Below are positions 6,087 through 48,797 of a DNA stretch of 64,000 nt, piece after piece; the stretch's first letter is position 1; the number at the start of each line of letters is the position of its first letter. The stretch is from Niabella soli DSM 19437. GTDB taxonomy: Bacteria > Bacteroidota > Bacteroidia > Chitinophagales > Chitinophagaceae. The notes beneath the pieces are model-generated. The model was not told the origin of the DNA. It saw only the letters and a list, made by a program, of their open reading frames with translations, and did not search any database. Position numbers and translations under genes: made by a program. The DNA is taken from assembly GCF_000243115.2 (NCBI RefSeq), contig NZ_CP007035.1:2356001-2420000 (forward strand). The letters run 5' to 3'.

Positions 6087-6089
6087 TTT

Positions 6090-22384: not shown

Positions 22385-22444
22385 CAATAATAGTACGATC
22401 TAAAGTGCGAATATGCCCGCATTTTGGCTCATAATTAAGTAATT
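22385..22444 (-). promoter_or_regulatory. SusC1 promoter with shared activator-like box
   Basis: On the minus strand: box AATTACTTAATTATG (22430-22444), then 40 bp, then TATTG (22385-22389) within TATTATTG, a 7/8 match to the Bacteroidota -7 consensus TAnnTTTG. The predicted start of transcription leaves a leader of about 30 nt before the SusC1 ATG. The same layout occurs before GH105 and SusC3. There is no clear -33 TTG, as expected for an activator-dependent promoter. Confidence 0.6.
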
Positions 22445-22540
22445 TTAGCATCTTACGATAACGTTTTCCCAACAGCGGTTTTTTAGCCGGTTAATCTCTA
22501 TAAAAAAAGCGTTTCCTTTTCCAAACAGGGAAAATCGTCT

Positions 22541-22576
22541 TTGAATGTGCTATACCTGTCCTTTATGGTAATATTG
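22541..22576 (+). promoter_or_regulatory. Candidate promoter of the divergent GH28-like gene
   Basis: TAATATTG at 22569-22576 matches the -7 consensus at 7 of 8 positions; a TTG lies at 22541-22543 but too far upstream. A ttttcc/ggaaaa inverted repeat (22517-22534) sits just above it. An alternative TTACTTTG is closer to the gene at about 22623. Weak evidence. Confidence 0.3.
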
Positions 22577-22650
22577 TTAACCAGAACGCCAAAAGAACTG
22601 CTGACGGATATGCTACTTTACATTACTTTGAAGTTTTAAAATTTAAAGTG

Positions 22651-26113: not shown

Positions 26114-26114
26114 A

Positions 26115-27377
26115 TTATTTTTTATATTCAATTTTATAAATAGTTCCCTTCACATCATCCGTAACATATAAGGCACCATCAGGACCCTGGGCCAATCCAC
26201 AGGGGCGGTGTTGTGCCTGTCGTGGGGATACTACTTCCGGCACTCCGGAAAAGCCATCAGCAAAAACCTCCCAATCGCCGGAAGGCTTACCGTCTTTGAA
26301 AGGCACAAACACTACATAATAGCCCTCCTGCTTTTCGGGCGTCCGGTTCCAGGAACCGTGAAAAGCCACGAATGCGCCATTCTTATATTTTTCCGGAAAT
26401 TGGTTGCCGGTGTAAAACAACAACCCGTTTGGAGCCAAGTGGCCCGGGAAGGCTACAACGGGGTCAATATACTTCGCGTCGCCTTCCTTTTTACCATCGC
26501 CGCCGTATTCGGGCGCCAGTATTTTCTTCTTTTGCAACTGGTCGTAATAAATAAACGGGAACCCCGCATCATCGCCTTTCTTGATCATATACATACATTC
26601 AGCCGGGAGCTCCGCCGATTGTTTTTCGGTATAAAGCGCGGGAAATATATCATGCAATTGATCCCGGCCATGCTGCATTACAAAAAGCGTATTGTTTTGG
26701 GTATTCCAGTCGAGCCCCACCACATTGCGCAAGCCCGTTGCATAACGCGTTCCCTGCGGGTAAGACTGATCCGGCTTATCGCTGCGGAACTGCCAGATAC
26801 CGCCGGCGGAATCCAGCAAAGGACATCCCGGTATTCCCATTGATCCCCGTTGCCGGTCTTTTTCCTGGCAGGAATTTAAAGGTGACCCGATATTCACATA
26901 AACGTTTCCGTCGTTATCCAGTACAATCGATTTTGTTTCATGCTGCCGTCCCATTTTTAAACCGGTGATGATGCGCTCGGGTTTATCCGGATTGATCACT
27001 TCGTTTTTGTCGTTCAACTGGTAACGAAATACTTCCTGGTTAGAGGAGGCATATAAATAACCATTTTTTACATAAATGCCGGTTCCGCCATAATCGCCAA
27101 AGCCCCCCGTCACGGTTGCTTTTCCATCGGCATTTTCTTTCAGCTCCACAATACCTTTACCTTTCCAGGGTCGCGCCATTTTTACATAGATCACTCCTCC
27201 GGGCAATACCACCAGGTGACGGGCTTTACCGGAGCTATCTATTATCTTTTTTGCCGAAAAGCCGGGAGCCAGCTTCAGACCGGCATTTGCCCCATTTCCA
27301 CTTTGGGCCGCTGCTGTCAGGCACATCGCGCTAAGCAAAAAAATTAAAACAACCGACCCCATACTATTTTTCATCAT
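26115..27377 (-). CDS. PQQ-dependent aldose-sugar dehydrogenase type beta-propeller
   Basis: A 420-residue secreted protein (signal to about AAAQ, residue 25) resembling soluble PQQ glucose/aldose dehydrogenases and sorbosone dehydrogenases. Key segments are GGVIYVKMARPWKGKG, KMGRQHETKSIVLDNDGNVYVNIGSP, GTRYATGLRNVVGLDWN, FVMQHGRDQLHDIFP and a FVAFHGSWNRTPEKQEGYYVV stretch, followed by HRPCGLAQGPDGALYVTDD. The Arg/His/Asp-rich loops fit cofactor and calcium binding. It would oxidise a sugar or its aldehyde in the periplasm and hand electrons to the adjacent cytochrome. The sugar is unknown; in this context a monosaccharide freed by the glycosidases is the natural guess. Confidence 0.82.
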   Translation of the reverse strand: MMKNSMGSVVLIFLLSAMCLTAAAQSGNGANAGLKLAPGFSAKKIIDSSGKARHLVVLPGGVIYVKMARPWKGKGIVELKENADGKATVTGGFGDYGGTGIYVKNGYLYASSNQEVFRYQLNDKNEVINPDKPERIITGLKMGRQHETKSIVLDNDGNVYVNIGSPLNSCQEKDRQRGSMGIPGCPLLDSAGGIWQFRSDKPDQSYPQGTRYATGLRNVVGLDWNTQNNTLFVMQHGRDQLHDIFPALYTEKQSAELPAECMYMIKKGDDAGFPFIYYDQLQKKKILAPEYGGDGKKEGDAKYIDPVVAFPGHLAPNGLLFYTGNQFPEKYKNGAFVAFHGSWNRTPEKQEGYYVVFVPFKDGKPSGDWEVFADGFSGVPEVVSPRQAQHRPCGLAQGPDGALYVTDDVKGTIYKIEYKK

Positions 27378-27520
27378 AGTTGCTATTGTTAATTAAATAA
27401 TTATTGTTTGGTCCGGAAAACAGCCGCTACAAATTTGAGTAGTTCTGTTCTCCGGTAAATACTGTTGATCAGCAAACTACTAATCAATGTTGGCAATGCC
27501 AGTAGGTAAAGTAACAATAA

Positions 27521-28387
27521 TCAGGCTAAAAACTCCCGTTGGTACATCAATGGGCTTCGCCCTGTAATGACCTTGAAATATTTATGGAAGCTTGTAAAGT
27601 TATTAAATCCGCTTTCAAAGCATAGGCGCTTCAGGCAGGTATTGGTCTCGATCAGTAATTTGCAGGCATGGCCCACGCGGAGTTCAATCAGAAACTGAGA
27701 GTAGGTCTTCCCGGTGCGTGATTTAAAATAACGGCAAAAGGAATTGGGGCTGATATTGGCCACATCGGCAATTTCCTCCAGGCGTATCTTTCGTTTAAAA
27801 TTTTTAATAGAATAGTCATAGATAGCCTGGATCCGCTCATTCTCGTCGGAATAATCATCCGGCTTAAACCCGACGGAAGACAATTGCCGGCACTCCGTTT
27901 CTCCTGAAATAATGGCCAATGCTTCAAACATCAATAAAATGCGCAGGCTCCCTTCCGCTCCCGAAAGGCGCTCCAGTATTTTTGCCACTTTAAGCCGGGC
28001 CTTGCCTTCTATTTGCAGGCCCCGTTTGGCGCGCTCCAGCACATCCTTTATTCCGCGGTTCTCGGGCAGGTTCAGGAATCCGTTGCCCAGGAAGTTCTCC
28101 GAAAAATGCGCTACGCGCACGTCTGTCTTTTTCAGAGGGTCCTCCTCAAAAAAAGTATCTTCAAATTTCCAGTAATGCGGCAGGTTGGGCCCTACCAATA
28201 CCACATTGCCGCTTTCAAACTTCGAAATGCTGTCTCCGATAAATTGAGTTCCCTCCCCGCATTTAAAATAAATTAATTCCAGCTCGGCATGTAAATGCCA
28301 ATGATTGTTTACGTGTGGCTCAGAATCTTTTCTCAAGCTAAATGATCGCAGCGGCTCTGTAGCAACTTTAAGTATTTGAGGTTTCAT
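27521..28387 (-). CDS. AraC-family transcriptional regulator with cupin sensor
   Basis: The only transcription factor in the window. Residues ~25-75 form a cupin-like ligand domain (NHWHLHAELELIYFKCGEG, VLVGPNLPHYW). Residues ~185-288 hold the two helix-turn-helix units, with LEEIADVANISPNSFCRYFKSRTGKTYSQFL-type and CFESGFNNFTSFHKYFKVITGRSP sequence. It sits in the middle of the glycan region, with its own long 5' space, and is the best candidate for the factor binding the AT-rich boxes before SusC1, GH105 and SusC3 (inference). The ATG at 28387 has no near alternative. Confidence 0.9.
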   Translation of the reverse strand: MKPQILKVATEPLRSFSLRKDSEPHVNNHWHLHAELELIYFKCGEGTQFIGDSISKFESGNVVLVGPNLPHYWKFEDTFFEEDPLKKTDVRVAHFSENFLGNGFLNLPENRGIKDVLERAKRGLQIEGKARLKVAKILERLSGAEGSLRILLMFEALAIISGETECRQLSSVGFKPDDYSDENERIQAIYDYSIKNFKRKIRLEEIADVANISPNSFCRYFKSRTGKTYSQFLIELRVGHACKLLIETNTCLKRLCFESGFNNFTSFHKYFKVITGRSPLMYQREFLA

Positions 28388-30599: not shown

Positions 30600-32753
30600 T
30601 CAGTTTTTTACTTCCGTTATTTCGACAACAGTACTGGTGAGCGATTGCAATTTTCCCGGAGCCAGGTTCAGACCCACTTCCATAAGATAGGCCCCTGAAA
30701 ATATATTTCCATTTTCAGCCAGCAAAGATTTAGTTCCCGGGAATAAATTAATTTCTTTGATCCGATATTGCTTACCCGCATCCAGTCCCTGCAACAATAC
30801 TTTTGAAAAGCTATCCTTCTTTCTAAGATTCAGGAAATAATTAAACAGAACCGACCGGGTTTTATCTTCATTCACGTACATAACAACGGCACGGTTTTCA
30901 TCATAGGGTGAGATCAGCCGGTAGAGATCGCCTTTCCAGATAACATTGCTGATATCCTTATATGTTTTTACCGCTGCCTTACTAAACTCCAGTTCCTGCG
31001 GAGTAAAATTATTTATGCGGATATCATAACCCATTTTTCCCATCATGGCCACATCTGTTTTAAATTTCAGCGACTGTTTGCCCATGCCGGTAACATGCGC
31101 TGCAATTGTATTTGCCGGAAAAAAATAAGAATATCCCCACTGGATGAAGATCCGTTCCAACGCATCGGTATTATCGCTGGGCCAAAATTCAGTAAAATAT
31201 TCCAGCGCCTTATAATCCGTGCGTCCACCGCCACCCGCACATAACATGATCGGAAGGTGCGGATATTTTTCGCGAATGCGTTTCATAACCGCATAAAATC
31301 CCTTTGTATAGTTGATATACAAATGCGACTGCCGTTCTTTTAAATAAACAGAATACGCATTCGTCATGCTCCTGTTGCAATCCCATTTTATAAAAGCGAT
31401 GCCGGGTGCCGTCTTCATTAATTGATCCACCGTATTAAACACGAAGTCCTGCACTTTCGGATTGGTGAGATCCAATACTAACTGGTTCCTTCCATAGCTC
31501 TCCGGCCGGTTGGGCAATTTCAAAATCCAGTCCGGATGTTTTTCATAAAGCTCGCTTTTAGGGTTTACCATTTCCGGTTCCAGCCAGATACCGAATTTTA
31601 TATTACGGGCATCCGCTTCCTTTACCAGCTTTGCCAATCCGTTGGGCAGTTTTGAGCGGTCGGGCTGCCAATCGCCCAGACCCGCCTTGTCATTGTTCCT
31701 TGGATATTTATTCCCGAACCAACCATCGTCCAGCAAAAACAGGTCTACCCCTAAACCCTTCGCTTCATCAAACAATTCCACCAATCGCTGTTCGTTAAAG
31801 TTGGTATGTGTGGCTTCCCAATTATTTAAGAGTGTCATGCGGGGCGCATTACCATCGAGCAAGGCCTCCTTCCGCACCCATTTGTGCAGGTTGCGGCTGG
31901 CCTGCCCCTTTCCTTTATCCGAATAGGTAAACACAAATCCGGGCGTTTCAAAAATTTCATTCGGGTTGAGATAATATTCCGATGCAAAGGGGTTGATCCC
32001 TGCCAGGATGCGCAACCCGTTTTTCTGATCCACTTCAAAAGTATATTTAAAATTACCCGTCCACCCCAGGGTACCGGCAATTAATTTTCCTTCTGTTTCA
32101 GTAGAAGGCTTATCTAATGAAACAAAGAAGGTCTGTGTCTGGTAGAAGTTCGTACGGGTGCCCAGTTTGCTTTCAATGCTCTTGATCCCGTTCTGGAGTT
32201 GCTCTTCTTTCATTTGCACCTCGCGCGCCCAGTCGCCGTGAAATTGGGTAAGCCAGTATTCATTAGCATTAAAATGCAGCAGGGAGGAGGCATATTGCGT
32301 CAGCAGCACCGGCTTCTTTTCCTGGTGCCGGATCTCCGTCCAGGTTTTGATCACATCTTCATCAATATAGGCGTTAAAATGAAGGATAACATAAAACGGA
32401 TAAACAGGATCTTTCAAACGAATTTGCGTGTGTACGCTATTTGCCTCCTTCGTTTGCTTATAATCTTCAAACTGCAGGTCCAGCGAGGGATTGCCATCAT
32501 TATGCACCGCCCGTATCGCTGGTTCAAACTGATTTTCCATACCCGCCGTCAGGTAAATCTCCCGGCCGCTGTTCAATGTTGCATAATCTGCTTTTACAAG
32601 TTTCTCTCCGATATATACCTGGATCACTTTTTTATCCTTGCCCACCTTGTAGACAAGAGCTGTGTTCTTTGTTTCAATAAATATTTTATCCGGCTGGGAT
32701 TTCCCCGCAAAGGATACAAACAGAAAAATAAGAATATAAAAAAAGGATTTCAT
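30600..32753 (-). CDS. GH36 alpha-galactosidase
   Basis: A 717-residue secreted GH36 enzyme releasing alpha-linked galactose. The start at 32753 (MKSFFYILIF) gives a simple signal peptide ending GKSQ; an in-frame ATG at 32774 is possible. The N-terminal beta-supersandwich is followed by the barrel with NNWEATHTNFNE, LDDGWFGN and GIWLEPEMVNP. The nucleophile is Asp458 in FIKWDCNRS and the acid/base Asp527 in WPSDNTDALER, 69 residues apart as in characterised members. GH36 also contains N-acetylgalactosaminidases, but these motifs fit galactosidases best. It lies between the six-hairpin protein and GH28. Confidence 0.92.
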   Translation of the reverse strand: MKSFFYILIFLFVSFAGKSQPDKIFIETKNTALVYKVGKDKKVIQVYIGEKLVKADYATLNSGREIYLTAGMENQFEPAIRAVHNDGNPSLDLQFEDYKQTKEANSVHTQIRLKDPVYPFYVILHFNAYIDEDVIKTWTEIRHQEKKPVLLTQYASSLLHFNANEYWLTQFHGDWAREVQMKEEQLQNGIKSIESKLGTRTNFYQTQTFFVSLDKPSTETEGKLIAGTLGWTGNFKYTFEVDQKNGLRILAGINPFASEYYLNPNEIFETPGFVFTYSDKGKGQASRNLHKWVRKEALLDGNAPRMTLLNNWEATHTNFNEQRLVELFDEAKGLGVDLFLLDDGWFGNKYPRNNDKAGLGDWQPDRSKLPNGLAKLVKEADARNIKFGIWLEPEMVNPKSELYEKHPDWILKLPNRPESYGRNQLVLDLTNPKVQDFVFNTVDQLMKTAPGIAFIKWDCNRSMTNAYSVYLKERQSHLYINYTKGFYAVMKRIREKYPHLPIMLCAGGGGRTDYKALEYFTEFWPSDNTDALERIFIQWGYSYFFPANTIAAHVTGMGKQSLKFKTDVAMMGKMGYDIRINNFTPQELEFSKAAVKTYKDISNVIWKGDLYRLISPYDENRAVVMYVNEDKTRSVLFNYFLNLRKKDSFSKVLLQGLDAGKQYRIKEINLFPGTKSLLAENGNIFSGAYLMEVGLNLAPGKLQSLTSTVVEITEVKN

Positions 32754-32818
32754 TTTATTTGTAATGGTCTTCATATAAGAAAAAGAGTATCGTTGTAATG
32801 ATTGTTTGGCAAGAGGGA

Positions 32819-32873
32819 AGTGGCGAGTAGTCAATAGGGGCAACCGGTTCCTTCCCACTAGCTACTCGCTACT
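32819..32873. repeat. Inverted repeat downstream of the six-hairpin gene
   Basis: agtggcgagtag (32819-32830) pairs at 11 of 12 positions with ctactcgctact (32862-32873), ending just outside the stop codon at 32884. It is rich in tag/act words like other short intergenic repeats here. It may form a hairpin in the transcript between the two genes. Confidence 0.5.
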
Positions 32874-32883
32874 TTCTACTCCC

Positions 32884-34929: not shown

Positions 34930-35010
34930 TATAGATGCGTTCAATAAATAACATTTACACAACTCAAACATATGATATCACCGTAAAAAATACAATTATA
35001 AATCCTTAGG

Positions 35011-36720: not shown

Positions 36721-36730
36721 GTGTCTATTT

Positions 36731-39700
36731 TTAAAAGGTAACATTTACTCCAAGGATCATTGATCGTACAGGTGGCGTGTCAATGCCTACTGTTCCCGCG
36801 CCTTCAGGATCCAACCCTCCCGCTTTCCGGTAGGGTGCATAGAGTATAAATGGATCCGAGGCTGTAACATAAGCGCGGAACGCCTTTAATCCTAACTGGC
36901 TTACCCATCGCGCGGGAAGCGTATATCCAAGGCTTAGTGTACGGATCTTGATAAAGCTTCCGTCAAAATAGCCCAGCAGGGACCGGTAGGCCGGGTTGGT
37001 GGTGGCAGCATTGGGTTTGGGAAATTGATTCTGGTGATTATCGGGCGTCCAGTAATCTACCTGCATATTATTGTAAGTGCCCTGGTAAGTGTTCACAAAA
37101 TTTCCCCCGTACAGACTGCTGTTCATCATAAAGCCCATTCTCGCAAAAGCCACAACAGTAAAATCAAAGCCTTTAAAAGCGATGCGTTGCGTAGTACCTC
37201 CCTGCCATTTAGGCTGGCTGGTGCCTACGATGATCCGGTCGTAGGTTGCGTCAATTTTTCCGTCGGGCACGCCCTGGGGCCCACTCACATCCGCAACTTT
37301 AATAGTACCGATCACAGAAGACGTTCCCGTAAGGGTTAACCCTAATGATTTGGCCAGCGCAGAATCTGCTGAGGTATTCTGCCAGATCCCTAATCGCTTA
37401 TAATCATAAAATACATCAATGGGACTGCCAACAAACCATCCATTGCCTACATCGCTCAACACGCCATTGGCCAGTTGTTTAATAACACCTCGGTTGATTG
37501 AAAAATTAAAATCGCTGGACCAGGAAAAACCCTGTTCCCGCTTCGCCTGGATATTTTCTGTATGCAGGGTGATCTCCATCCCTTTATTTTCTGTTTTGCC
37601 AATATTGGTTACTATTTTATTAGGGATACCGGAGGTTGGAGGCAGTGTTTGCGGTAACAACAAGGAATTGGTGTATTGATGATACAATTCAATGGAGCCG
37701 CTGACCCTGTCCTTAAGTACGCTAAAGTCTATCCCGATATTAGCCGTTGCCGTATTCTCCCAGGTCAGCTTTGGATTGGGCGCGTTGGAAGGATACACAC
37801 CGGTGGTAGTAGTACTTCCGTAATTGTACACTAGCGGAGACAAAGACCCCAGCGTCTGGTAGGGATCAATAGCGGTATTACCCACCATTCCATATCCGGC
37901 CCTCAGTTTCAGGCTTGAGAATATTTCGGATCCTTTTAAGAATTTTTCATTCCCTAAGTTCCATGCCGCAGAAGCAGATGGAAAAACGTGATACTTATTA
38001 CCCGGAGCCAGGCGGGAAGAGCCGTCCGACCGCATAGTAAGCGTAAGCAGGTAACGGTTATCAAAGCCATAGTTCAATCTTCCCATATAGGATAAAATAT
38101 CCCATTTTGAATAAGCGCCCTTACCCGTCAGATTAGAGCCATACACGGGATTATAGAAGGCCAGGTAGTCCGCAGAAATATCTGTATTGTCAAATTGATT
38201 CGACTGGCTTTGCGATTGCTGCAAACTGTAAAGGCCTGTGAAATTTATATGATGTTTTGCTGCAAACGTTTTTTCATATACCAGTAAATTTTCTATCGTG
38301 TAGTCGGTGCTCAATGCCGTTCTGTTAGAGGAGGTGGAGGGCTTACCCAGGTTATAAGTCGTTTTGCTGGCATAGAAATTACCATACACATCACTGCGTA
38401 TCTCGGCTCCTGCATTCAGACGATACTTCAGTCCGTCCAGCAGATTGATCTCACCATAAAACGTAGTAAAAGTCCCCAACCGTTTCCGGGTTTCCACCAC
38501 TGCATTCTTTTCAAAATCCGCCAAAGGGTTCCACACCTGGCTGGCGCTGCCCGGAACAAAATTGTTGAGCACGGCTCCTGTTGAATCAAAAGGCGATACC
38601 AGGGGACTTGCCCGTAACGCCTGCGCCATCGGGTTGGCGCTTTCTCCTTTTCGGGTTGAAAAATTATTTAATGAGCTCAACCCGATTTTAATGCGTTTGC
38701 CTAATTTTTGGTCCACACTAATTTTGACAGAATAGCGCTCAAACGATTGTCCCGGATAAATCCCGGTTTGATTAAAGTACCCTCCTGAAACAGCATACTG
38801 GGTTTTATCTGTCCCCGCTGATACGCCTACCTGGTGATCCGTAATGATCCCCGTTTTGTAGATGTATTGTTGCCAGTTAGTGCTTCTTCCGGTTTTAACC
38901 CCTTCTACTTCTGCCGGGTCAAATACGCCGTTTGTAAGAAAAAGCGGATCATCCAACCCTGTATATTTACCGGGGTTGGCATTAATATTCGCCCATTTTT
39001 TTAATGTGGCAAATTCCTGTCCATTCATAACAGGAAATTCATCGGTTATTTTAGAAGTGCCTATATAACCGCTATAGGTAACCACAGGCGTTGATCCTGC
39101 TTTACCTCGTTTTGTGGTGATCAATAATACGCCATTTGCTCCGCGCGATCCGTAAATAGACGTGGCGGAGGCATCTTTTAATATTTCAACAGATACCACA
39201 TCATCCTGGTTCAGATCTGCTATACTACCATTAAACGGGACGCCATCTACTACGATCAACGGGCTGTTAGAAGCACCCAGTGAGCGGGAGCCCCGGATCA
39301 GTATACTGGGCGTTGCACCGGGCTTGCTGTTGGCGCCGCTTCGCTGAATATCCACTCCCGCTGCCTGTCCCTGCAAAGCATTGCTAAGGTTGGAGGCAGG
39401 AACATTTTTAATGGCCTGCTCGCTTACGGAGGCAATGGCGCCGGTGATATCCCTTTTTCGCTGGGTTCCGTAGCCCACCACAATCACTTCATCTCCAGTT
39501 TTAATATTTGTTTGCAGAACGATACTAAGGGGCTCCGGCCCGGTTACGCTTACTTCCTGTTGCAAAAAGCCCACGCCGGAAAAGACCAGCACCGCTTTAC
39601 TGTTCGCAACCTCAATGCTAAATCTTCCATTGGCATCCGTCGTTGTTCCACGCGTGGTGCCTTTCTCTATAATGTTGATCCCTGTTAACGGCTTGCCGCT

Positions 39701-39853
39701 TTCATCCGTAACCGTCCCTTCTACGTGAATTGCCGCCGGTATCGCATTGCCATTAAGGTTTATAACAGCCATCCCGGCCTGCAGGTCCTTTGCCCAAACC
39801 AACGCCGGGCATAGCAGGATGACCAAAGCAATTGTCCATAATCGTTTATTCAT
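36731..39853 (-). CDS. SusC-like TonB-dependent outer-membrane transporter 2
   Basis: A 1040-residue importer. Signal peptide to about VWAK; the carboxypeptidase-regulatory-like domain begins HVEGTVTDESGKPLTGINIIEKGTTRG, followed by EVIVVGYGTQRKRDITGAI and a plug with NLSNALQGQAAGVDIQRSG and PLIVVDGVPFNG. The barrel ends MILGVNVTF. Unlike SusC1 and SusC3 it lacks the box-N40-TATTG promoter just upstream; it may be read through from GH105 173 bp away, whose promoter does have it. An AAACGTTT palindrome (39999-40006) lies in the space between. Confidence 0.95.
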   Translation of the reverse strand: MNKRLWTIALVILLCPALVWAKDLQAGMAVINLNGNAIPAAIHVEGTVTDESGKPLTGINIIEKGTTRGTTTDANGRFSIEVANSKAVLVFSGVGFLQQEVSVTGPEPLSIVLQTNIKTGDEVIVVGYGTQRKRDITGAIASVSEQAIKNVPASNLSNALQGQAAGVDIQRSGANSKPGATPSILIRGSRSLGASNSPLIVVDGVPFNGSIADLNQDDVVSVEILKDASATSIYGSRGANGVLLITTKRGKAGSTPVVTYSGYIGTSKITDEFPVMNGQEFATLKKWANINANPGKYTGLDDPLFLTNGVFDPAEVEGVKTGRSTNWQQYIYKTGIITDHQVGVSAGTDKTQYAVSGGYFNQTGIYPGQSFERYSVKISVDQKLGKRIKIGLSSLNNFSTRKGESANPMAQALRASPLVSPFDSTGAVLNNFVPGSASQVWNPLADFEKNAVVETRKRLGTFTTFYGEINLLDGLKYRLNAGAEIRSDVYGNFYASKTTYNLGKPSTSSNRTALSTDYTIENLLVYEKTFAAKHHINFTGLYSLQQSQSQSNQFDNTDISADYLAFYNPVYGSNLTGKGAYSKWDILSYMGRLNYGFDNRYLLTLTMRSDGSSRLAPGNKYHVFPSASAAWNLGNEKFLKGSEIFSSLKLRAGYGMVGNTAIDPYQTLGSLSPLVYNYGSTTTTGVYPSNAPNPKLTWENTATANIGIDFSVLKDRVSGSIELYHQYTNSLLLPQTLPPTSGIPNKIVTNIGKTENKGMEITLHTENIQAKREQGFSWSSDFNFSINRGVIKQLANGVLSDVGNGWFVGSPIDVFYDYKRLGIWQNTSADSALAKSLGLTLTGTSSVIGTIKVADVSGPQGVPDGKIDATYDRIIVGTSQPKWQGGTTQRIAFKGFDFTVVAFARMGFMMNSSLYGGNFVNTYQGTYNNMQVDYWTPDNHQNQFPKPNAATTNPAYRSLLGYFDGSFIKIRTLSLGYTLPARWVSQLGLKAFRAYVTASDPFILYAPYRKAGGLDPEGAGTVGIDTPPVRSMILGVNVTF

Positions 39854-40026: not shown

Positions 40027-41157
40027 TCATTTCAGCAGGGCCGTAGCACACCAGAGTAAAGGCGCCTGGCCATGCAAATCACCGGTAATACGCTTCCGGT
40101 TGAGATAATATTGATGGTCATTTTTCATATTAGTGCCTTCACACACTTCCGTAATGTCATTATCTGCATTGATGTATTTGATCAATGAGAGCCAGGCTTT
40201 ACGTGCCGCGGGAGCGTACGTGGCTTTGTTAAGCCAGCCTTCTTTTACGCCGGTAATAAATGCGAAAGTGAACATACCGGTACAAGAGGTTTCTTTCCAG
40301 GAAGTGGGGTCGTCAATGAGTTGCCGCCACATACCATCTTCGGCCTGGTGCTTTAATAAGGTAGCCATCATTTTTTTATAGCCTTCCATAATGCGGGACC
40401 GGTTGGGATTATCCTTCGGCAGCGAGCGCAATAATTCGCTCATCCCCGCAGCCATCCAGCCATCGCCCCTGCCCCAGAAATAGGGTACACCCGGCGCATG
40501 ATAAAATAAACCATTGGGTTGTTGCAGGGAATCCAGATAGAAAACCATCTCTTTAGCTGCTTTATCAATATACATACGGTCCCCGGTTGCCCTGTATGCC
40601 TGCGACTGAACAGCGGTGATCATGAACATGTCATCAATCCACAACCGCGTTTGCCAGCTCAATCCTTTATCATAAAAACGATGCGAATCGGGGGTTACCA
40701 TTTTCCCTTCTGGTGGGCCCCACTGCTTATCCGCCATCCGTTTGCCAATAGCCAGGTAACGGGGGTCTTTCGTTTGTATATACAATTCAAAAGGAACTGC
40801 ACCAAACACGGTGCGATCCACATGATCCGGCGTTGGGATCAACGTATCCCTGCTGCCCAGCAGTGGATCAAAACGCGCTACCAGTTGTTTGGTAAACGCG
40901 GTATTACCCGTTACTTTGGCAAAGGTTAACGCTCCGTACCAGGTGCAGGTTTCGGGGTAGGTGATCATTTTTGGCGGGCCCGGCCGGTTAAAATTCGTAT
41001 GCGGTGTTGCAATAAATCTTGACGTGATCCTATCGCCTATCTCTTTTGGTGATGCGCCCTCCGGCCAGTTTTTGAATTGGGGAACAGTTGTCTGTGCAGG
41101 AGCCGCTACCACTTCAAATAACACAGCTCCGATCATCAATGCTTTTACTATTCGCAT
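40027..41157 (-). CDS. GH105 unsaturated rhamnogalacturonyl/glucuronyl hydrolase
   Basis: Removes the unsaturated uronate from lyase products of rhamnogalacturonan or similar polymers. A 376-residue (alpha/alpha)6 barrel with signal peptide (to about APAQ). WQTRLWIDDMFMITAVQSQAY holds the catalytic Asp pair of the family, VPYFWGRGDGWMAAGMSELL the Trp-rich subsite, and HQAEDGMWRQLIDDPTSWKETSCTGMF the remaining signature. It complements GH88 in block A. It has its own promoter with the shared box and is probably the first gene of the SusC2 unit. Confidence 0.92.
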   Translation of the reverse strand: MRIVKALMIGAVLFEVVAAPAQTTVPQFKNWPEGASPKEIGDRITSRFIATPHTNFNRPGPPKMITYPETCTWYGALTFAKVTGNTAFTKQLVARFDPLLGSRDTLIPTPDHVDRTVFGAVPFELYIQTKDPRYLAIGKRMADKQWGPPEGKMVTPDSHRFYDKGLSWQTRLWIDDMFMITAVQSQAYRATGDRMYIDKAAKEMVFYLDSLQQPNGLFYHAPGVPYFWGRGDGWMAAGMSELLRSLPKDNPNRSRIMEGYKKMMATLLKHQAEDGMWRQLIDDPTSWKETSCTGMFTFAFITGVKEGWLNKATYAPAARKAWLSLIKYINADNDITEVCEGTNMKNDHQYYLNRKRITGDLHGQAPLLWCATALLK

Positions 41158-41266: not shown

Positions 41267-41326
41267 CAATACTAATGATTAAAAACAGCGGCGCAATTTG
41301 GCATATTATCCGTTTATTAAACAATT
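41267..41326 (-). promoter_or_regulatory. GH105 promoter with shared activator-like box
   Basis: Minus strand: box AATTGTTTAATAAAC (41312-41326), 40 bp, then TATTG (41267-41271) in TAGTATTG, a 7/8 match to TAnnTTTG. A TTG (41294-41296) lies exactly 19 bp upstream of the -7 element, the consensus -33 position for Bacteroidota. The box is identical over 15 bp to the one before SusC3. The predicted leader is about 100 nt. Confidence 0.65.
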
Positions 41327-41391
41327 CCGGCAGAAAGCTGCGGATGGATCCCGAAAGTGTTCCATTACGATAAGGAGTTTATAACGCCAAA

Positions 41392-41443: not shown

Positions 41444-42181
41444 TTACGGCGTTACGGTTTTATAATCGGTATAAAACGTGTCGATTGCTGTTTTTGTTGG
41501 TGCAAATCCGGTGCGGAACTTAAAAGAGGTTCCGGGTTTATAACCGGTGATCGTATCTGCCGTTGCAAAACCGATAGGATTCCCTCTTTCCGAGAGCAGC
41601 CCCTTGAGATACAGGGTTACCAGTTGATCGGTACTGTTGGTGTACTGTAGTTCCACTACCACGGCCTGCTGGCCGGCGCCAAACCAACTCAGATAAACCG
41701 TTTTCCCGTCTTTTGATTTCGTAACCCCTTTAAGCGAGCGATTGAATATCGACTGGGCATAAGTATCCCCATAAGACGCTGCTGTTACTTCGGATTTTAC
41801 AGAAGAATGTCCAACGCCATCATAGGCGAAGACCTGAAAGGCATACAAACCTTCGGGCAATTTATTAACCATTGCATTGATCGTATCCACGCCGGCACTT
41901 CTTGTTACGGGGATGACCAAAGAATCGGTTTTATTATTCCAGAAAACCTTGCACTGCACAATCTTGGGATCCGACACAAGCATCCATCGGAGCAATACCC
42001 GGTTATCTCCTGAAAAAGCCGTCAGCGAATCGGGTCTGCCGGAATAAACGATCTCCCCGTTCTTTACAAAATCCGCATAGTTGCTATTCATCTTCCCACA
42101 GGAAAAAAGCATTGTAAGGAATAGCGCGCCTCCCAGCAAGCAGGGAGCACAATAGTTCGATAAATTATATTTCATCCTCAT
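41444..42181 (-). CDS. DUF4998 lipoprotein (surface glycan-binding type)
   Basis: A 245-residue lipoprotein. The signal ends TMLFSC, followed by GKMNSNYADFVKNGEIVYSGRPDSL and LLRWMLVSDPKIVQCKVFWNNKTDSL, the recognisable DUF4998 N-terminus; the rest is fibronectin-like beta structure (LPEGLYAFQVFAYDGVGHSSVKSE). Such proteins are encoded after SusC/SusD pairs and are thought to bind glycan at the cell surface. It ends the block D operon. An ATG two codons downstream is an equally good start. Confidence 0.78.
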   Translation of the reverse strand: MRMKYNLSNYCAPCLLGGALFLTMLFSCGKMNSNYADFVKNGEIVYSGRPDSLTAFSGDNRVLLRWMLVSDPKIVQCKVFWNNKTDSLVIPVTRSAGVDTINAMVNKLPEGLYAFQVFAYDGVGHSSVKSEVTAASYGDTYAQSIFNRSLKGVTKSKDGKTVYLSWFGAGQQAVVVELQYTNSTDQLVTLYLKGLLSERGNPIGFATADTITGYKPGTSFKFRTGFAPTKTAIDTFYTDYKTVTP

Positions 42182-42195
42182 TGTTACGGTTATTT

Positions 42196-43413
42196 TTATT
42201 TAAGCTGTCCCCAAATAGACAATTCAAAAACGTGAAAGAATCCTGTTCGGCCGGTAATAGCGCTCCAGCAGTCAACATTTTTCCAGGCAATGTAACGAAC
42301 AGCAGGTGCATTTTCAGGAAAGTCATACTCCTGGCCACTCTTAGCCAGATCAACGTCTTCGTTTGAGTTCTGGCCTTCCGGTAAACCGGAGGGTTTTACC
42401 ATGATCTGGTGATCCAGCAACACCCAACTGTTCACATCATTAGGCGTATTCGTGCCCCATATTTCCCATTCATGCGGGTTTCCATGCCCCCACTCAAATC
42501 CTCCGGTCCGTTGCCAGATCTTGTAGCGGCTGAACCGGGCTTTCACCCCCAGGTCAATGGGGATCCAAATGGGCTGATCTACGTTCTGTTTGGTATGGAA
42601 CATCGACGAAGTATTGCCATCATACAGATTTTTCATGGGATAGCTGCTCGAATAATCAACCGCTTCGATCATTGCGGCGCCGGACTGCGGAAGGGGCTCC
42701 CGCTGCGGGATCGGGTATTTCTTTCTAATGTCTTTAAATAAGGACTTGTCCAGGAGCACCTCATAAATGGGCTTTAGCTGAAACGCCATAGTATCGGAAA
42801 GGTTATTCCAGCGGTCTCTTACCACCAAAGCAAAATCCTGCAACGTAGAGTCCTGGCCCCTAACTTTAAACAGGCCCGCGGGCAATGCGGTATAGGCTGC
42901 ATCGATCTGGCGCCATTCCTTTTGCTCGGCATTCCATTTCAGTGCCATGATAACCATATTCGCTTTGTCTTCATTTGCAAACGATGCAAGGAAGCCACCA
43001 AACGAGGGCGTAACAGACAACGACTGGCGAACTTTTAAAACAGGGGGGGTAAGCGGTTTGATTTTAACAGTTACCGGGGCTGATAGTTTTTCTGCCCTGC
43101 TTACCGTGTACAATTTCACTTCATGTTCATCAGTATCTCCAAACCCCTCTACGATAAGATTGTTTGAGAAAAAAGAGGCTTTCACATCTTTTACTTCTCC
43201 TTTAAACAGGTATTCTGCTTTTACATAAAGCAGGTTGGAGCTGGCCGGCAACGTATAAGATATTTGCGCGCCACCGGAAATATTTTTTACCGTCGCATTG
43301 ACCACGGGATCCGGCGTTGATGGATCTGTATCTATCGGGGTATTTTCTGTTTTTTTACAGCCTATAAAGATTATGGAGCATAATCCAATAAAAAAAGCGG
43401 TTTTCATTTTCAT
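42196..43413 (-). CDS. DUF4959/DUF5000-type surface glycan-binding lipoprotein
   Basis: A 405-residue lipoprotein with lipobox IFIGC and mature KKTENTPIDTDPS. The N-terminal Ig-like part (DUF4959, PDPVVNATVKNISGGAQISYTLP) is followed by a middle DUF5126-like domain. The C-terminal galactose-binding-like domain (DUF5000) has MKNLYDGNTSSMFHT, IPIDLGVKARFSRYKIWQR and GNPHEWEIWGTNTPND. The architecture fits a SusE-position glycan-binding protein. The start at 43413 (or 43407) is chosen over the one at 43446, which would overlap SusD3. Confidence 0.82.
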   Translation of the reverse strand: MKMKTAFFIGLCSIIFIGCKKTENTPIDTDPSTPDPVVNATVKNISGGAQISYTLPASSNLLYVKAEYLFKGEVKDVKASFFSNNLIVEGFGDTDEHEVKLYTVSRAEKLSAPVTVKIKPLTPPVLKVRQSLSVTPSFGGFLASFANEDKANMVIMALKWNAEQKEWRQIDAAYTALPAGLFKVRGQDSTLQDFALVVRDRWNNLSDTMAFQLKPIYEVLLDKSLFKDIRKKYPIPQREPLPQSGAAMIEAVDYSSSYPMKNLYDGNTSSMFHTKQNVDQPIWIPIDLGVKARFSRYKIWQRTGGFEWGHGNPHEWEIWGTNTPNDVNSWVLLDHQIMVKPSGLPEGQNSNEDVDLAKSGQEYDFPENAPAVRYIAWKNVDCWSAITGRTGFFHVFELSIWGQLK

Positions 43414-43439
43414 ATATGTTTTTATTGAATTGATCTGAT

Positions 43440-45374
43440 TTACCATCCCGTATTCTGTACCAGGTTTGTATTGATCCGTAGTTCACTGGTTTGTATGGGC
43501 CACAAATAATTGCGCAATGCAAATCGCTGATTAAACAATAACATCGGGTTGTAATAAGGGATGGCATCTTTTTGCGTGATGTCCCAGCCTCTGATGGGTT
43601 CATTTAATTCTACATGGGCGATCTTCCATCGCAACAAATCCCAGAAACGCTGGCCTTCGAACATCAGTTCAATACCCCGCTCCTGCTGGATGATAGCCCT
43701 CAACCCCTGTTTATCTTTAAACTTCAGCGGGTCCCTGGAATGTTGCGTCCAGGAATCTTCAACAGATTGTAACCCGGCCCTGGCTCTTACCTGGTTGATC
43801 CAATAATACACCTCCGCACCGGGACCGTTCAATTCATTGAGCGCTTCCGCGTATAACAAATACAGATCCGACATCCGGAGCTCGGGCCAGGGATATTGTA
43901 CGGTATTGCTGGTGATATTTCCATCGGCGGCAACCGTTGTTTCAATATTCACTAATTTCTTCGGATAGTACCCTGTAATAGAATAGTTACTGATCCCCTG
44001 TCTGGCGGCTGTTTCGCCGGCTCTTCCTTTTACATACAGCAAACCTGCAGCAGCATATACATTGTAATTATTGACCCAGTTGCCGAACCAGATACCCCTG
44101 TCAAAGCCCAGGGAGGCATAAAAGCGTGGTTCCCTGTCAAAATTAAGCTTCACCGTTTCCTGGCCTTTGGCAATATAGAACTGATCTGCAGCCGCTGCCG
44201 TTTTTAATGCAAAGCGATCATTAAAATTCCAGTCCGGATCTTCAGTAATGGGCACTCCGTTCTTCGAATAAAATAACTCTGCCATTTTTATGGTAGGCGC
44301 TATAATGCTCTTTGCGTTTGAAGTGCTGGTAAAGGGTGCAATATTTGCCATCGAATAACGCTGCATATCGCCGGCACGGCTATCCGTATTAGGCCAGATC
44401 ACTTCAGGGTTATTCACTTTATTGGTTATAGCCGTACGAATGTCCAATTCCTGCCGGATCGTATCATTAAGGATATAGCCTGTATTCCCGGCAAAGGTGG
44501 ACAATGAATAGCCGTTAGTCTTGCAAAATTCAATTGCATCTTTACAGGCTTCTGCGGCCTTCGCCCATTTTTGAGGATCCACCGTTTGTGAAAACAACTG
44601 CCGCCCTTTATTATCGATTAAAGAGGCGTAAGCGGTATTCCCGTTGAATAAAGGGCTTGCAGCGGTAACCAGCACTTTTGCTTTTATCGCTTTTACAATG
44701 CATTTGGTTATTCTTCCCAGGTCTGCATTTTCTGTTCCTGAGATACGATCCGGCAGTTGGTCGCTTGCAGCCGCCTGGTCCAGCAACGATACAATATAAT
44801 TAACACAGGAATCCACCGGCTCCCGGTACACTTTTACTTCTTCCGGGGAAGCCGAAATAGGGAGATTGGTTTTTTCCAGCGGGATGGGGCCGTACATTCT
44901 GAATAAATAAAAATGATAATAGGCTTTCAGGAAAACAACTTCTGCTTTCCAGCGCTCCCGCTCATACTCGTTCAGATCCGGCACTTTATCTACATTTTCC
45001 AAAAAAGTATTGCACTTCCTGATGGCCTGGAACAAGGCAGTTCCGCGGGTTGACCCAGCCCAGAAATTGCCCAGCGGGTTATCCGCATTCTGCAGCCCCC
45101 GGGCAATATTGTTATAGGTAGCATCCACATCCCGGATCGGGTCCATGTACCATACTTCGTCTCCACTGTTAAACGCGGGATTATCATTAAAGGATGCGTC
45201 ATTAGGAAGATAAGAGAAGCAGGAAAATAAATAACGTTCTGCTGATGTTCGTAACGTAAAGGCGCTTTCAATGGTTGCTATACTGTCCGGCACCACATTC
45301 AGAAATTTTTTACAGCCAGGCAATATACCTATAGCGATAATTGCCAGTATTCCTATTTTTTGAATTGTTCTCAT
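43440..45374 (-). CDS. SusD-like outer-membrane glycan-binding lipoprotein 3
   Basis: A 644-residue RagB/SusD protein, longer than the other two. Lipobox GILPGC, then KKFLNVVPDSIATIESAFTLRTSAERYLFSCFSYLPND. The C-terminal domain has PELRMSDLYLLYAEALNEL, WINQVRARAGLQSV and IIQQERGIELMFEGQRFWDLLRWK, and ends LWPIQTSELRINTNLVQNTGW. It follows SusC3 by 9 bp. The extra length lies in insertions around the glycan-facing helices, consistent with a different ligand. Confidence 0.94.
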   Translation of the reverse strand: MRTIQKIGILAIIAIGILPGCKKFLNVVPDSIATIESAFTLRTSAERYLFSCFSYLPNDASFNDNPAFNSGDEVWYMDPIRDVDATYNNIARGLQNADNPLGNFWAGSTRGTALFQAIRKCNTFLENVDKVPDLNEYERERWKAEVVFLKAYYHFYLFRMYGPIPLEKTNLPISASPEEVKVYREPVDSCVNYIVSLLDQAAASDQLPDRISGTENADLGRITKCIVKAIKAKVLVTAASPLFNGNTAYASLIDNKGRQLFSQTVDPQKWAKAAEACKDAIEFCKTNGYSLSTFAGNTGYILNDTIRQELDIRTAITNKVNNPEVIWPNTDSRAGDMQRYSMANIAPFTSTSNAKSIIAPTIKMAELFYSKNGVPITEDPDWNFNDRFALKTAAAADQFYIAKGQETVKLNFDREPRFYASLGFDRGIWFGNWVNNYNVYAAAGLLYVKGRAGETAARQGISNYSITGYYPKKLVNIETTVAADGNITSNTVQYPWPELRMSDLYLLYAEALNELNGPGAEVYYWINQVRARAGLQSVEDSWTQHSRDPLKFKDKQGLRAIIQQERGIELMFEGQRFWDLLRWKIAHVELNEPIRGWDITQKDAIPYYNPMLLFNQRFALRNYLWPIQTSELRINTNLVQNTGW

Positions 45375-45383
45375 ACATTAATT

Positions 45384-48300
45384 TTAAAAGGATGCATCAA
45401 TACCAACTGTAAATGTTTTTTGTAAAGGATATTTTAAACCATCGCCACCCATTTCAACATCCCATAATTTAAATTTGCTGATGGTAAAAAGATTGCCCCC
45501 GGTGAAGTAGATCCTCAGCTTGGTCATTTTTATTTTATTAGACAAACGGGGCGGAACGGTGTACGCGGCCTGCACCTGTTTGAGTCTTAAAAAGGAGCCA
45601 TCCCGCATAAACCAGGTGCTGGGTTGGTTATTATTTGCATTAGTAGTATAACTCAGCCTGGGCCATAAGGCATAGAGGTTCCGGTTATCTTCTGACCAAT
45701 GGTCGTCAGCATACGCTTTTAACAACTGGTTTTTCAGCAGCACATTATCGGGGGCCGGATCATTGGAAGAATAGCGGTAGGAAATGAACGGAGCTGTCGA
45801 CTGCGGGTTGATCCAGAATGATTCCCGTGCGGAACCCTGGGCAAAAAAAGAAAATTCAAAATTCTTATAGTTTCCGGAAAGTCCGAAACCATAAACGATT
45901 TCAGGATTGGTAGGAAAACCGATGGGCACCATATCATTCTGGTTGATGACTCCATCCCCGGTCACATCGCGGAATTTTATATCACCGCCACGGGTGGGGG
46001 TACTTCCGAAAACCTGAGCGGGAGAATTTTGCACCTCTTCATCATCAACAAAAAGGCGTTCTGCTATATAGCCCCATTGCTGGTTCACCGGCTGCCCTTT
46101 TTTGTACGACCATGGATACGCATATTCAGGTTCTTCGTAAGCATCAAACCTATTCTTCGCATAGGTAAAGTTGCCGATAAACTGCACGCCAACATCCTTT
46201 CCGAAGCGCTGGTTATAGGTGGCGTTAATGTCAATAGAACGGGAACGCGCCTTTCCCACATTTGCTTTAGGCGTGGCTCCTTCCAAACCCATGGTCAGCG
46301 GTATGGAAGCCCGGTCCATCAGGATGTTGTAACGGTGCTCCAGGAAATATTCGGCAGTAATATCCAGTTTTCTGAACAAAGTGGCCTCTACTCCGAAGGT
46401 TGAGTTACGGGCCGTTTCCCAAGATATTTGGCTGTTGCCATAACGGGCCACCGATATACCGTTTCTTGTATAACCCCCATCCGTTCCGAAACTGAATTTA
46501 TAGTCCGGATCGTTCATATCAATATTAGACAGGTAAAAGAAGCGGTCGCTGGCGCTGCCTATCGCATCATTTCCCACAAGCCCCAGGTTTCCTCTGATCC
46601 GGAGTTTTGAAAACACATCTTTGAGCGGCTCAAAAAATTTCTCGTTAGAAACAGACCAGGCCAGGCCAAAGGACGGGAAGAATCCAAACCGGTGACTTCT
46701 GTCAAAACGCTCTGATCCGTTATAAGCAAAATTAACTTCTGCAAAATAGCGGTTATCATATGCATAAGTACCACGGCCACCCAGGGTAATATTACGGGAA
46801 GGAAGCGAACGCTGTAACGTAAGCTCATTACCGCTTGCGTCGTTTTGCAGCATAAAAATGGCCATACCCGTCAGGTTGCTTTTTCCAATGGAGCGGTTGT
46901 AATTCGAAGCCAGCTCGGCATGAAACGTAGAAAGCACACTTTTATCTCCGGGTACAAAATCAATATAATCCGAACCCGTATCCGGATTTAAATCGAGTAA
47001 GGTGAAAGTATTGGTATACTTATCGTAATTGGTTGGCGCTACATAAAAAGGTTTGTATGCCCGGGTAACCGTAAAATTAGCCCGGCGGTTCGTCGTCATC
47101 ATCCCGCGCAGTGATAACCCGGGAGTAATGATAGTAGACAGGTCCTGGTTCAGTTCGATCTGAGCGCCCATCAGCGAATTGGAATATTGTTTATACCCCC
47201 GCGTCATATCCGCATAGGGATTAAAGTAATTCCCTGTCTCCGCATTACCAAACAGGATGTGATTTACAAAGCGGTGTGCAGAATCGGGCTTATAGTAAGG
47301 CCGGAACAAAACAGGACTGGTGCGCATAATATTCATATACATGGCCGCGCCCGAGGTAATAGGCCCTGTGTACGTATCAAAGGTTCCGAAAAGCCGCACC
47401 ATCGCCGATGTGGTTTTAGTTACTTTAAGATTTACGTTCGATCGGATCGTATAGGTTTTAAGGTCAATATTCGTATTAAAATTATTACGGTGATCCACCT
47501 TTAAATTCCCATGATCCTGGTTCATGGAGCCTGCAATATAATAAGTAGCTATACCACCGCCGCCGCTCAGGTTCATATTCAATCGTTGGTTATTAGTAGT
47601 GGGGGTTAGCATCTCTTTTTGCCAGTCTACCGTGGGGAACATCTCGGGATTTATCCCGGAAATAGTATTATCAATTTTGCTTTGCGAATAGGGCAAAATC
47701 CCCAGCGGATTCCGGGTTAGCACCGCTTCATTCTCCAGGTTCATATACGTAATAGGGTCGGCGATCTGCACCATTCTTGTTGGCTGCGAAACGGAGTTTT
47801 CAAACCGCACATTGATCTTGGCCCTTCCCTCTTTACCTTCTTTGGTGGTAATCAGGATCACCCCGTTAGCACCCCGCGCGCCGTACAAGGCATTCGCTGT
47901 GGCGTCCTTCATAATTGAGAAACTGGCGATATCATCTACGTTTAAACGCGCTAATTCCGTTGTGGTATATTCCATCCCATCTATTAAAATCAAAGGATCC
48001 TTCTTATATCCGAAAGTAGTGGCGCCTCTGATAAAGAATTCGGCATTATCGGCTCCCGGCTCACCAGAGCGCTGGTAACCTATAATACCCGCAACCCTCC
48101 CCGCAAGGGCCTGTGTAAGGTTACTCGACGGAATTTTAAGATCTTCGGGTTTTACTGTTGTTACCGATCCTATTACAGATCCCTTTTTCTGAGTTCCGTA
48201 AGCTACCACAACCACTTCATCCATTTTGCTGTGCGAGATCGTCATTCTTACATCAATGACAGACTTTCCTTTCACAGGCATCTCCACCGGCGCATATCCG

Positions 48301-48575
48301 GTCATTTCAAATACAAGAATGGAATTCTCGTCAGGCACGTCCAGAATATATTTTCCGTTGGCATCCGTTGTAGTTCCGATTGATGTTTGATTTTTAACAT
48401 AAACAGTTACTCCAAATAAGACCCCCGCAGAGTCAGTAACAGTTCCCCGCACTTCCTTTTTGATTAGCGAAGGCGGTCGCTTAATAAATTCATTGCCCGA
48501 AAAAGCTTTTGACGTTACGACAAAAAGCAACACAATAAGCAGGAGGGTTCCTCTTTTAATTTTTAACCAATTCAT
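45384..48575 (-). CDS. SusC-like TonB-dependent outer-membrane transporter 3
   Basis: A 1063-residue importer and first gene of block D. Signal to about KAFS; the regulatory-like domain starts VRGTVTDSAGVLFGVTVYVKNQ, then EVVVVAYGTQKKGSVIGSVTTV and a plug with NLTQALAGRVAGIIGYQRSGEPG and PLILIDGMEYT. The barrel ends FTVGIDASF. The promoter with the shared box lies about 165-220 bp upstream, leaving a long leader of about 155 nt. Confidence 0.95.
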   Translation of the reverse strand: MNWLKIKRGTLLLIVLLFVVTSKAFSGNEFIKRPPSLIKKEVRGTVTDSAGVLFGVTVYVKNQTSIGTTTDANGKYILDVPDENSILVFEMTGYAPVEMPVKGKSVIDVRMTISHSKMDEVVVVAYGTQKKGSVIGSVTTVKPEDLKIPSSNLTQALAGRVAGIIGYQRSGEPGADNAEFFIRGATTFGYKKDPLILIDGMEYTTTELARLNVDDIASFSIMKDATANALYGARGANGVILITTKEGKEGRAKINVRFENSVSQPTRMVQIADPITYMNLENEAVLTRNPLGILPYSQSKIDNTISGINPEMFPTVDWQKEMLTPTTNNQRLNMNLSGGGGIATYYIAGSMNQDHGNLKVDHRNNFNTNIDLKTYTIRSNVNLKVTKTTSAMVRLFGTFDTYTGPITSGAAMYMNIMRTSPVLFRPYYKPDSAHRFVNHILFGNAETGNYFNPYADMTRGYKQYSNSLMGAQIELNQDLSTIITPGLSLRGMMTTNRRANFTVTRAYKPFYVAPTNYDKYTNTFTLLDLNPDTGSDYIDFVPGDKSVLSTFHAELASNYNRSIGKSNLTGMAIFMLQNDASGNELTLQRSLPSRNITLGGRGTYAYDNRYFAEVNFAYNGSERFDRSHRFGFFPSFGLAWSVSNEKFFEPLKDVFSKLRIRGNLGLVGNDAIGSASDRFFYLSNIDMNDPDYKFSFGTDGGYTRNGISVARYGNSQISWETARNSTFGVEATLFRKLDITAEYFLEHRYNILMDRASIPLTMGLEGATPKANVGKARSRSIDINATYNQRFGKDVGVQFIGNFTYAKNRFDAYEEPEYAYPWSYKKGQPVNQQWGYIAERLFVDDEEVQNSPAQVFGSTPTRGGDIKFRDVTGDGVINQNDMVPIGFPTNPEIVYGFGLSGNYKNFEFSFFAQGSARESFWINPQSTAPFISYRYSSNDPAPDNVLLKNQLLKAYADDHWSEDNRNLYALWPRLSYTTNANNNQPSTWFMRDGSFLRLKQVQAAYTVPPRLSNKIKMTKLRIYFTGGNLFTISKFKLWDVEMGGDGLKYPLQKTFTVGIDASF

Positions 48576-48737
48576 AATTATTTCAATAATGATGAAGCAA
48601 TCATCGATTAATACCGAAGCTGTTATTACAAGTATTCAATAGCAGGAAACGCGCGGCTGGCAAGCATTTGCGTTACTATACTCCCGTTAAACTATAAGTT
48701 CCCGTAAGCACTCATATGGCCTGTACAATCGATACTG

Positions 48738-48797
48738 CAATATTAAAATGCAAAAACCACCCCATCACTCAACGAATTAGCTGTTTATTAAACAATT
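48738..48797 (-). promoter_or_regulatory. SusC3 promoter with shared activator-like box
   Basis: Minus strand: box AATTGTTTAATAAAC (48783-48797), 40 bp, then TATTG (48738-48742) in TAATATTG, 7/8 to TAnnTTTG. The box contains the 11-bp palindrome GTTTATTAAAC. No TTG sits at the -33 position, which suggests dependence on an activator. A GTTTTT tract sits at the same offset from the box as in the GH105 promoter. Confidence 0.65.

Follow-up and report, generated by a model that had tools for sequence, protein, structure and literature searches.

Most of what is known about how polysaccharide loci are controlled comes from gut Bacteroides, in which the systems studied best are of the hybrid two-component and sigma types (PMC3878776). 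For AraC-type regulators, 21-bp direct repeats have been reported (PMC3870299, PMC3878776). Here, we characterize a 27-bp element of this kind in a 64,000 nucleotide stretch of DNA (the window) from the Chitinophagaceae member Niabella soli DSM 19437 (contig NZ_CP007035.1, positions 2,356,001 to 2,420,000), where it stands before the transporter genes SusC1 and SusC3, before a GH105 gene and before a further gene at 3284-4687. We propose, at a probability of roughly 85%, that this element is an AraC-type operator which is likely bound by a cupin-AraC protein encoded in the window and switches on pectin-responsive promoters.

Three described systems come closest. The predicted sites of the AraC-type regulator RhaR of Bacteroides (PMC3870299) share a tandem repeat of 21-bp period, the stand-alone AraC-type regulator and sugar-catabolic targets. 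The system described here differs in its pectin SusCD targets, in its Chitinophagaceae host and in its targets in other genera, which are GH28 and GH36 genes, FucP-type permeases and genes of the galactarate/altronate dehydratase family. HTCS_Rgu-1/2 of Bacteroides thetaiotaomicron (PMC3878776) likewise have pectin targets including SusC/SusD, an AraC-type DNA-binding domain and direct repeats ~21 bp apart, whereas the candidate here is a cupin-AraC protein of 288 residues that has neither a histidine kinase nor a receiver domain. CgrA (ZGAL_3159) of Zobellia, a positive regulator of carrageenan use (PMC5698469), is also a stand-alone AraC-family protein of a polysaccharide locus, but acts on another substrate and in another phylogenetic group. 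No description of the operator was found in the literature searched, which covered few subscription papers and did not extend to RegPrecise. A stand-alone AraC-type regulator of Chitinophagaceae would gain a predicted operator with fixed promoter geometry, its targets could be listed from genome sequence in several genera, and the shared operator would explain how several SusCD systems could obey one switch.

A predicted tandem-repeat operator at fixed distance from the -7 element

A preliminary description of the window had pointed out an AT-rich box, AATTGTTTAATAAAC, that occurs identically on the minus strand at 41312-41326 (GH105) and 48783-48797 (SusC3), with a 10/15 relative, AATTACTTAATTATG, at 22430-22444 (SusC1), and in all three cases 40 bp separate the box from TATTG. 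The coordinates, the relative and the spacing were all verified in the sequence. The box turned out to be the middle of a larger element, a tandem repeat of the form GYYAA-N16-GNYAA with a 21-bp period, placed at a fixed distance from a -7 element of the TAnnATTG type. This repeat is present before SusC1 and SusC3 as well as in 25 aligned sites outside this genome that were selected by matrix score and by the presence of TTTG in the -7 element. The invariant columns of these 25 sites are G1, A4, G22 and A25 within the repeats and A14 in the core. Consequently, two readings of the box were abandoned, the initially suggested palindrome and an UP element, as conservation falls on a direct repeat whose GYYAA units flank the box. 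The predicted operators, -7 elements and candidate regulator are listed below; ranks and scores are those of the external matrix, and mismatches are counted against the genome pattern (both described below).

48776..48802, minus strand: SusC3 operator GATAA-N16-GCTAA, containing the box at 48783-48797; window rank 1, 0 mismatches
48738..48745, minus strand: SusC3 -7 element TAATATTG at the fixed offset, kept in two orthologues; predicted transcription start at about 48733
41305..41331, minus strand: GH105 operator GCCGG-N16-GATAA with degenerate first repeat, containing the box at 41312-41326; 2 mismatches
41267..41274, minus strand: GH105 -7 element TAGTATTG, with TTG at -33; read from the sequence
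22423..22449, minus strand: SusC1 operator GCTAA-N16-GCCAA; window rank 2, 0 mismatches
22385..22392, minus strand: SusC1 -7 element TATTATTG; read from the sequence
4780..4806, minus strand: new operator GTTAA-N16-GCAAA of the 3284-4687 gene; rank 3, or rank 1 with the -7 block
4742..4749, minus strand: -7-like element GTTATTTG of the 3284-4687 gene, at the exact offset
27468..27494, minus strand: weak operator GCCAA-N16-GCTGA of the PQQ gene, in the gap between the AraC and PQQ genes; 2 mismatches, matrix score 7.3
27430..27437, minus strand: -7-like element CAAATTTG of the PQQ gene, at the exact offset
27521..28387, minus strand: AraC-family regulator of 288 residues (HTH_18 and HTH_AraC), candidate operator binder

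The -7 elements of SusC1, SusC3 and GH105 follow TAnnATTG, with GTTATTTG and CAAATTTG standing before the 3284-4687 and PQQ genes. A TTG at -33 is part of the Bacteroidota sigma-A promoter; it was seen before GH105 and before the SusC3 orthologues of Niabella pedocola JCM 31011 (G010) and Niabella sp. BIN29 (G012), and is absent from SusC3 and SusC1 of the window. The -7 consensus given for Bacteroidota in PMC9723704 is TAnnTTTG, placed at -12 to -5.

An unseeded motif search was carried out in intergenic DNA upstream of GH36 orthologues from other genera, using no window sequence. Of 28 loci taken, one was truncated and left out; among the other 27, the gap was too short in 5, so that 22 regions were used. 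The search returned GCcAAtATaatTGAATAAAtaG.CAAC, which corresponds to the window box plus the two flanking direct repeats, and thus the same operator was found independently. Fifteen of the 22 regions scored above 13; the 13 sites scoring at least 18 were kept, and two sites at 13.5 were left out of the matrix. A TnnnTTTG-like -7 element is located at the exact window offset in 10 of the 13 kept sites.

These 13 sites from six genera yielded an external matrix for the 27-bp repeat region. Across 127,872 window positions, its four best matches were the sites before SusC3 (21.3), SusC1 (19.8), the 3284-4687 gene (16.8) and GH105 (15.8). Each of the four is no more than 250 bp away from a gene start and has its -7 element at exactly the expected offset. 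When the matrix columns were permuted 500 times, 499 of the resulting matrices placed no such site among their top four and one placed a single one. When a -7 block was added, the 3284-4687 gene moved to the top, followed by SusC1 and SusC3, and GH105 fell to sixth place. The site at 4742-4806 before the 3284-4687 gene had been missed in the preliminary description.

In the whole genome of 4,697,343 bp, the 15-mer AATTGTTTAATAAAC has exactly 2 copies, both inside the window. Searching for the box followed by N40 and TATTG with up to 3 mismatches gave 6 matches (two at 0 and four at 3), compared with 2 for the reversed control. Among the 56 SusC genes of the genome, only SusC3 carries the exact layout. 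SusC1, at 5 mismatches and tied with two other SusC genes, is indistinguishable from background by box and TATTG alone; its place is supported by the wider operator, where it ranks second by external matrix and has no mismatch to the genome pattern. That pattern, at up to 2 mismatches, was found at six places, five of them in the window, with one match for the reversed control. SusC1 and SusC3 show 0 mismatches, and the 3284-4687 gene, the PQQ gene, GH105 and the one outside place show 2 each. A profile model (R1) built from the 25 aligned sites mentioned above, of which two come from within the genus, had its two best genome-wide matches before the 3284-4687 gene (E 0.09) and SusC3 (E 0.18), and none of its other six matches showed a complete layout in an intergenic position.

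In case of the PQQ gene, a 13/15 relative of the box, AATTATTTAATTAAC, had been reported at 27388-27402. The sequence is present, but its reading as a relative of the same kind is not supported, and it is probably not the site of this gene; 27430-27494, which has repeats and -7 spacing, though weak, was preferred. The corresponding gap between AraC and PQQ genes contains a site with one mismatch and CATATTTG in genome G005; the gap of N. pedocola reaches a matrix score of 15.3 but has no matching -7 element, and that of BIN29 was judged by eye. Separately, a possible weak operator, GGTAA-N16-GCCAA (score 9.5), lies at 22567-22631 on the plus strand before a GH28-like gene divergent from SusC1. 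Its TACTTTG -7 element is one base off the expected place, and we do not claim it as an operator.

Association of the predicted operator with an AraC-family gene

The AraC-family protein encoded at 27521-28387 has no histidine kinase or receiver domain, and its matches to AraC_binding and cupin families fall below threshold. In its predicted structure, a barrel of cupin type is joined to a DNA-binding domain of AraC type (mean predicted local distance difference test score 79.7, predicted template modeling (TM) score 0.57, 11 sequences). The modeled barrel is similar, though at modest scores, to domains by which RhaR, BgaR and AraC sense sugars, and the best structural matches of the full-length model are other AraC-family regulators at low TM-scores.

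At E<=1e-80, homologues were found in 74 of 394 genomes of the family, where a GH36 gene is often next, and there is one match in the N. soli genome itself. Across 32 homologues, identity amounts to 75-89% in the DNA-binding half (98% in Niabella BIN26) and 54-79% in the N-terminal half (BIN26 90%). An exact family pattern of the operator occurs at 21 sites in 16 of the 394 genomes and has no match when reversed, and all 16 genomes belong to the 74 with an AraC homologue. Fourteen of the 21 sites lie within 400 bp of the AraC gene, five on the same contig 22-46 kb off and two on other contigs. Seven of the sites were found for the first time in this search (two in G060 and one each in G265 C13, G373 C47, G194, G124 and G025); all are in AraC-bearing genomes, three of them beside the gene.

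A site together with a correct -7 element was detected at 15 of 23 AraC loci from other genera, 4 of 6 from the same genus and 0 of 102 control loci. The 15 loci include 13 non-training sites, in 11 loci. The controls comprised 27 SusC loci of N. soli (27 of 30 retrieved, the window's three being excluded), 27 SusC3-like, 28 GH105-like and 20 diverged GH36 loci. Among 35 AraC-locus sites scoring at least 15, 8 of which were training sites, 28 have TTTG, ATTG or CTTG within 3 bases of the expected place; the offset is 0 in 21, -1 in 6 and +1 in 1. This recurrence beside AraC homologues in other genera, with the -7 spacing kept, goes beyond the evidence of the preliminary description. Its suggestion of a single activator site in fixed phase at three transporter-linked promoters, perhaps served by the local AraC protein, is supported by it, and the original observation is confirmed and stronger than first stated.

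The 27-bp element consists of two direct repeats G-Y-Y-A-A, 21 bp or two helical turns apart, and would lie at about -69 to -43. With centers near -67 and -46, the repeats would lie on the same helix face and adjoin the -33 region. Most likely, a dimer of the AraC protein binds them side by side, close to RNA polymerase, senses a pectin breakdown product, probably galacturonate or a derivative, and turns the promoters on. We infer activation rather than repression because of the placement of the operator relative to the promoter. What is directly observed is that the repeats exist, keep their spacing, recur across genera and go together with the AraC gene.

Several findings weigh against this interpretation. 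The repeats are degenerate before GH105 and the PQQ gene, as they are before the 3284-4687 gene. In 60 first-order shuffles of the window, the best repeat-matrix score averaged 14.2 with a maximum of 20.2, which exceeds the scores of SusC1 and GH105; with the -7 block, shuffles contained on average 0.5 (maximum 3) sites equal to GH105. The genome pattern was fitted to the window sites after they had been viewed, and its weight therefore lies in the near absence of other matches. Model R1, which is less sensitive than matrix and pattern, reported only 2 of the 5 window sites and missed SusC1, GH105 and the PQQ gene. The family pattern was post hoc as well, with 14 of its 21 sites already known, partly through searches of AraC neighborhoods; the seven first-time sites are the cleanest part of the evidence for the AraC link. 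No such site was found within 1.5 kb at 8 of the 23 other-genus and 2 of the 6 same-genus AraC loci, and the AraC gene of Niabella BIN26, at 93% identity, has none within 4 kb. Diverged GH36 upstream regions, 20 copies selected from a longer list, had sites in 0 of 10 cases with and 0 of 10 without an AraC homologue in the genome, a comparison that cannot test AraC dependence. Finally, the AraC gene of the window is adjoined only by the weak PQQ site.

This last point would also fit a real operator bound by another regulator, for instance a second protein of AraC type or a hybrid two-component system, and Bacteroides hybrid two-component regulators do use direct repeats ~21 bp apart (PMC3878776). 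We nevertheless consider this unlikely, given that sites lie beside homologues of the local AraC across genera, that all 16 genomes with exact sites carry such a homologue and that in N. pedocola and BIN29 the AraC homologue (73%) is the divergent neighbor of SusC3. Further, the genome holds just the one match to the local AraC at E<=1e-80, and a Pfam scan of 31 window proteins, which did not extend to the rest of the genome, revealed no hybrid two-component system.

UP-like elements act just upstream of -33. The AT-rich center of the element occupies that position, so the box could be a general promoter feature with no specific regulator. We regard this as very improbable, as the invariant columns include the repeat positions G1, A4, G22 and A25 and not only A14 of the core, hardly any other SusC promoter of the genome has the box, site and -7 element occur together at none of the 102 control loci, and permuted matrices of the same composition fail to find these promoters.

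The AraC gene itself is preceded by a perfect palindrome, GCAAACGTTTGC, at 28474-28485, and the araC genes of N. pedocola and BIN29 have GCAATCGTTTGC in front of them. These sequences suggest a possible LacI-type regulator above the AraC regulator.

Predicted regulon content and probable duplication of the SusC3 promoter

The genes concerned are the following.

45384..48575, minus strand: SusC3 (TIGR04056)
41444..45374, minus strand: SusD3 (as named in the preliminary description) and two accessory genes (DUF4959/5126/5000; DUF4998) behind SusC3; open reading frames, with Pfam matches for the accessory genes
40027..41157, minus strand: GH105 (Pfam Glyco_hydro_88), first gene behind a probably duplicated promoter
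30600..39853, minus strand: SusC2, SusD2, a 695-residue protein and GH36, probably transcribed by readthrough from the promoter of GH105
26115..27377, minus strand: PQQ-type glucose/sorbosone dehydrogenase-like protein (PF07995, PF22807)
19232..22348, minus strand: SusC1 (TIGR04056)
3284..4687, minus strand: 467-residue protein, new predicted regulon member with operator upstream

The predicted regulon of the window would comprise SusC1, SusC3, GH105 with SusC2/SusD2/GH36, and the 3284-4687 gene, with the PQQ gene as a probable further member. With the thresholds used, searches of Pfam, NCBIfam, PADLOC and PDB sequences returned nothing for the 3284-4687 protein, and at a lax threshold its only match had an E value of 0.3. 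Its N-terminus presumably resembles a lipoprotein signal. Orthologues (72-74%) in N. pedocola and BIN29 have a similar element upstream, with TTTG one base closer, and the product is a candidate new pectin-related protein. In the same two genomes, SusC3 orthologues (86%) have promoters that align without gaps, including ATTGTTTA, TTAAT, GTTTTTGC and the -7 element TAATATTG, and a SusC1-like gene (52%) of Niabella genome G013 carries the operator and TATTATTG.

Within the genus, the operator pattern gave 12 sites in 9 of 17 genomes and none when reversed. Ten of these are outside this genome, 6 before SusC-type genes (4 next to dnaX, 1 SusC3-like in a broken frame and 1 SusC1-like), 1 before another TonB receptor and 1 each before a homologue of the 695-residue protein, a PQQ gene and a gene divergent from araC. 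In other genera, the next gene was examined for 14 of the 21 exact sites and codes for FucP-type permeases in 6 cases (four of them checked by family search), proteins of the galactarate/altronate dehydratase family in 3, GH28 in 2 and GH36 in 2, and one GH95-like next gene is ~560 bp away. Altronate dehydratase catalyzes a step in the breakdown of galacturonate, and based on these targets we propose a pectin or galacturonate signal.

GH105 and SusC3 share more than the box. Their upstream regions align with each other over operator, -7 element and part of the leader, and do so better than all shuffled pairs (0 of 500 as good); for the leader alone, 3 of 500 shuffles were as good, and this was the best of seven leader pairs tested. 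The identical 15-mer thus probably reflects a promoter duplication, and the two sites are not independent. A layout due to shared ancestry alone, with this duplication carrying no regulatory meaning and SusC1 a chance match, is scarcely credible despite the alignment past -7 and the probably inherited 15-mer, since the motif search in other genera arrived at the operator without window sequence and SusC1 has 0 mismatches to the genome pattern while its upstream region otherwise aligns with that of SusC3 no better than chance (69 of 500 shuffles as good). The GH105 leader did not align with the SusC3 leaders of N. pedocola or BIN29, and the promoter copy would therefore stem from the N. soli lineage.

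SusC2 had been suggested to be read from the GH105 promoter. Neither the SusC layout comparison nor the external matrix revealed an operator of its own, in agreement with this, and putative readthrough is favored. No minus-strand terminator-like site was found in the 173-nt gap between GH105 and SusC2, and the RNA fold of this gap is unremarkable (z -0.98). SusC2, SusD2 and GH36 would then be transcribed by readthrough from the GH105 promoter. In N. pedocola and BIN29, GH105 is located behind SusC2-SusD2 and has no box or operator. SusC2 of N. pedocola (L128:679-6051) has an STN match of 27.1 bits, just under the 28.4 cut-off, and FecR and ECF-type sigma-70 genes upstream. SusC1, SusC2 and SusC3 of the window show no STN match, and no FecR or sigma gene was seen beside the window SusC2, which lies behind GH105.

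We consider it evenly balanced whether a copy of the SusC3 promoter, placed before GH105, moved the pectin transporter system SusC2/SusD2 from STN-FecR-sigma sensing outside the cell to AraC sensing inside, a direction of change inferred from three genomes. This suggests that promoter duplication can shift a locus between kinds of control and, if true, the SusC2 case would be a natural rewiring of a polysaccharide locus by promoter capture.

Downstream of the SusC1 genes, the region 366-14597 codes for two fucosidases, chondroitinase B-like, GH88-like and alginate-lyase family proteins, GH31 and GH95. The locus is flanked by dnaX and a dsbA-like gene (window 48901-51781). In Niabella BIN26 (L243), the 93%-identical AraC gene directly adjoins dnaX, and four other Niabella genomes have a dnaX-adjacent SusC with operator, which marks this as a recurrent place for such loci.

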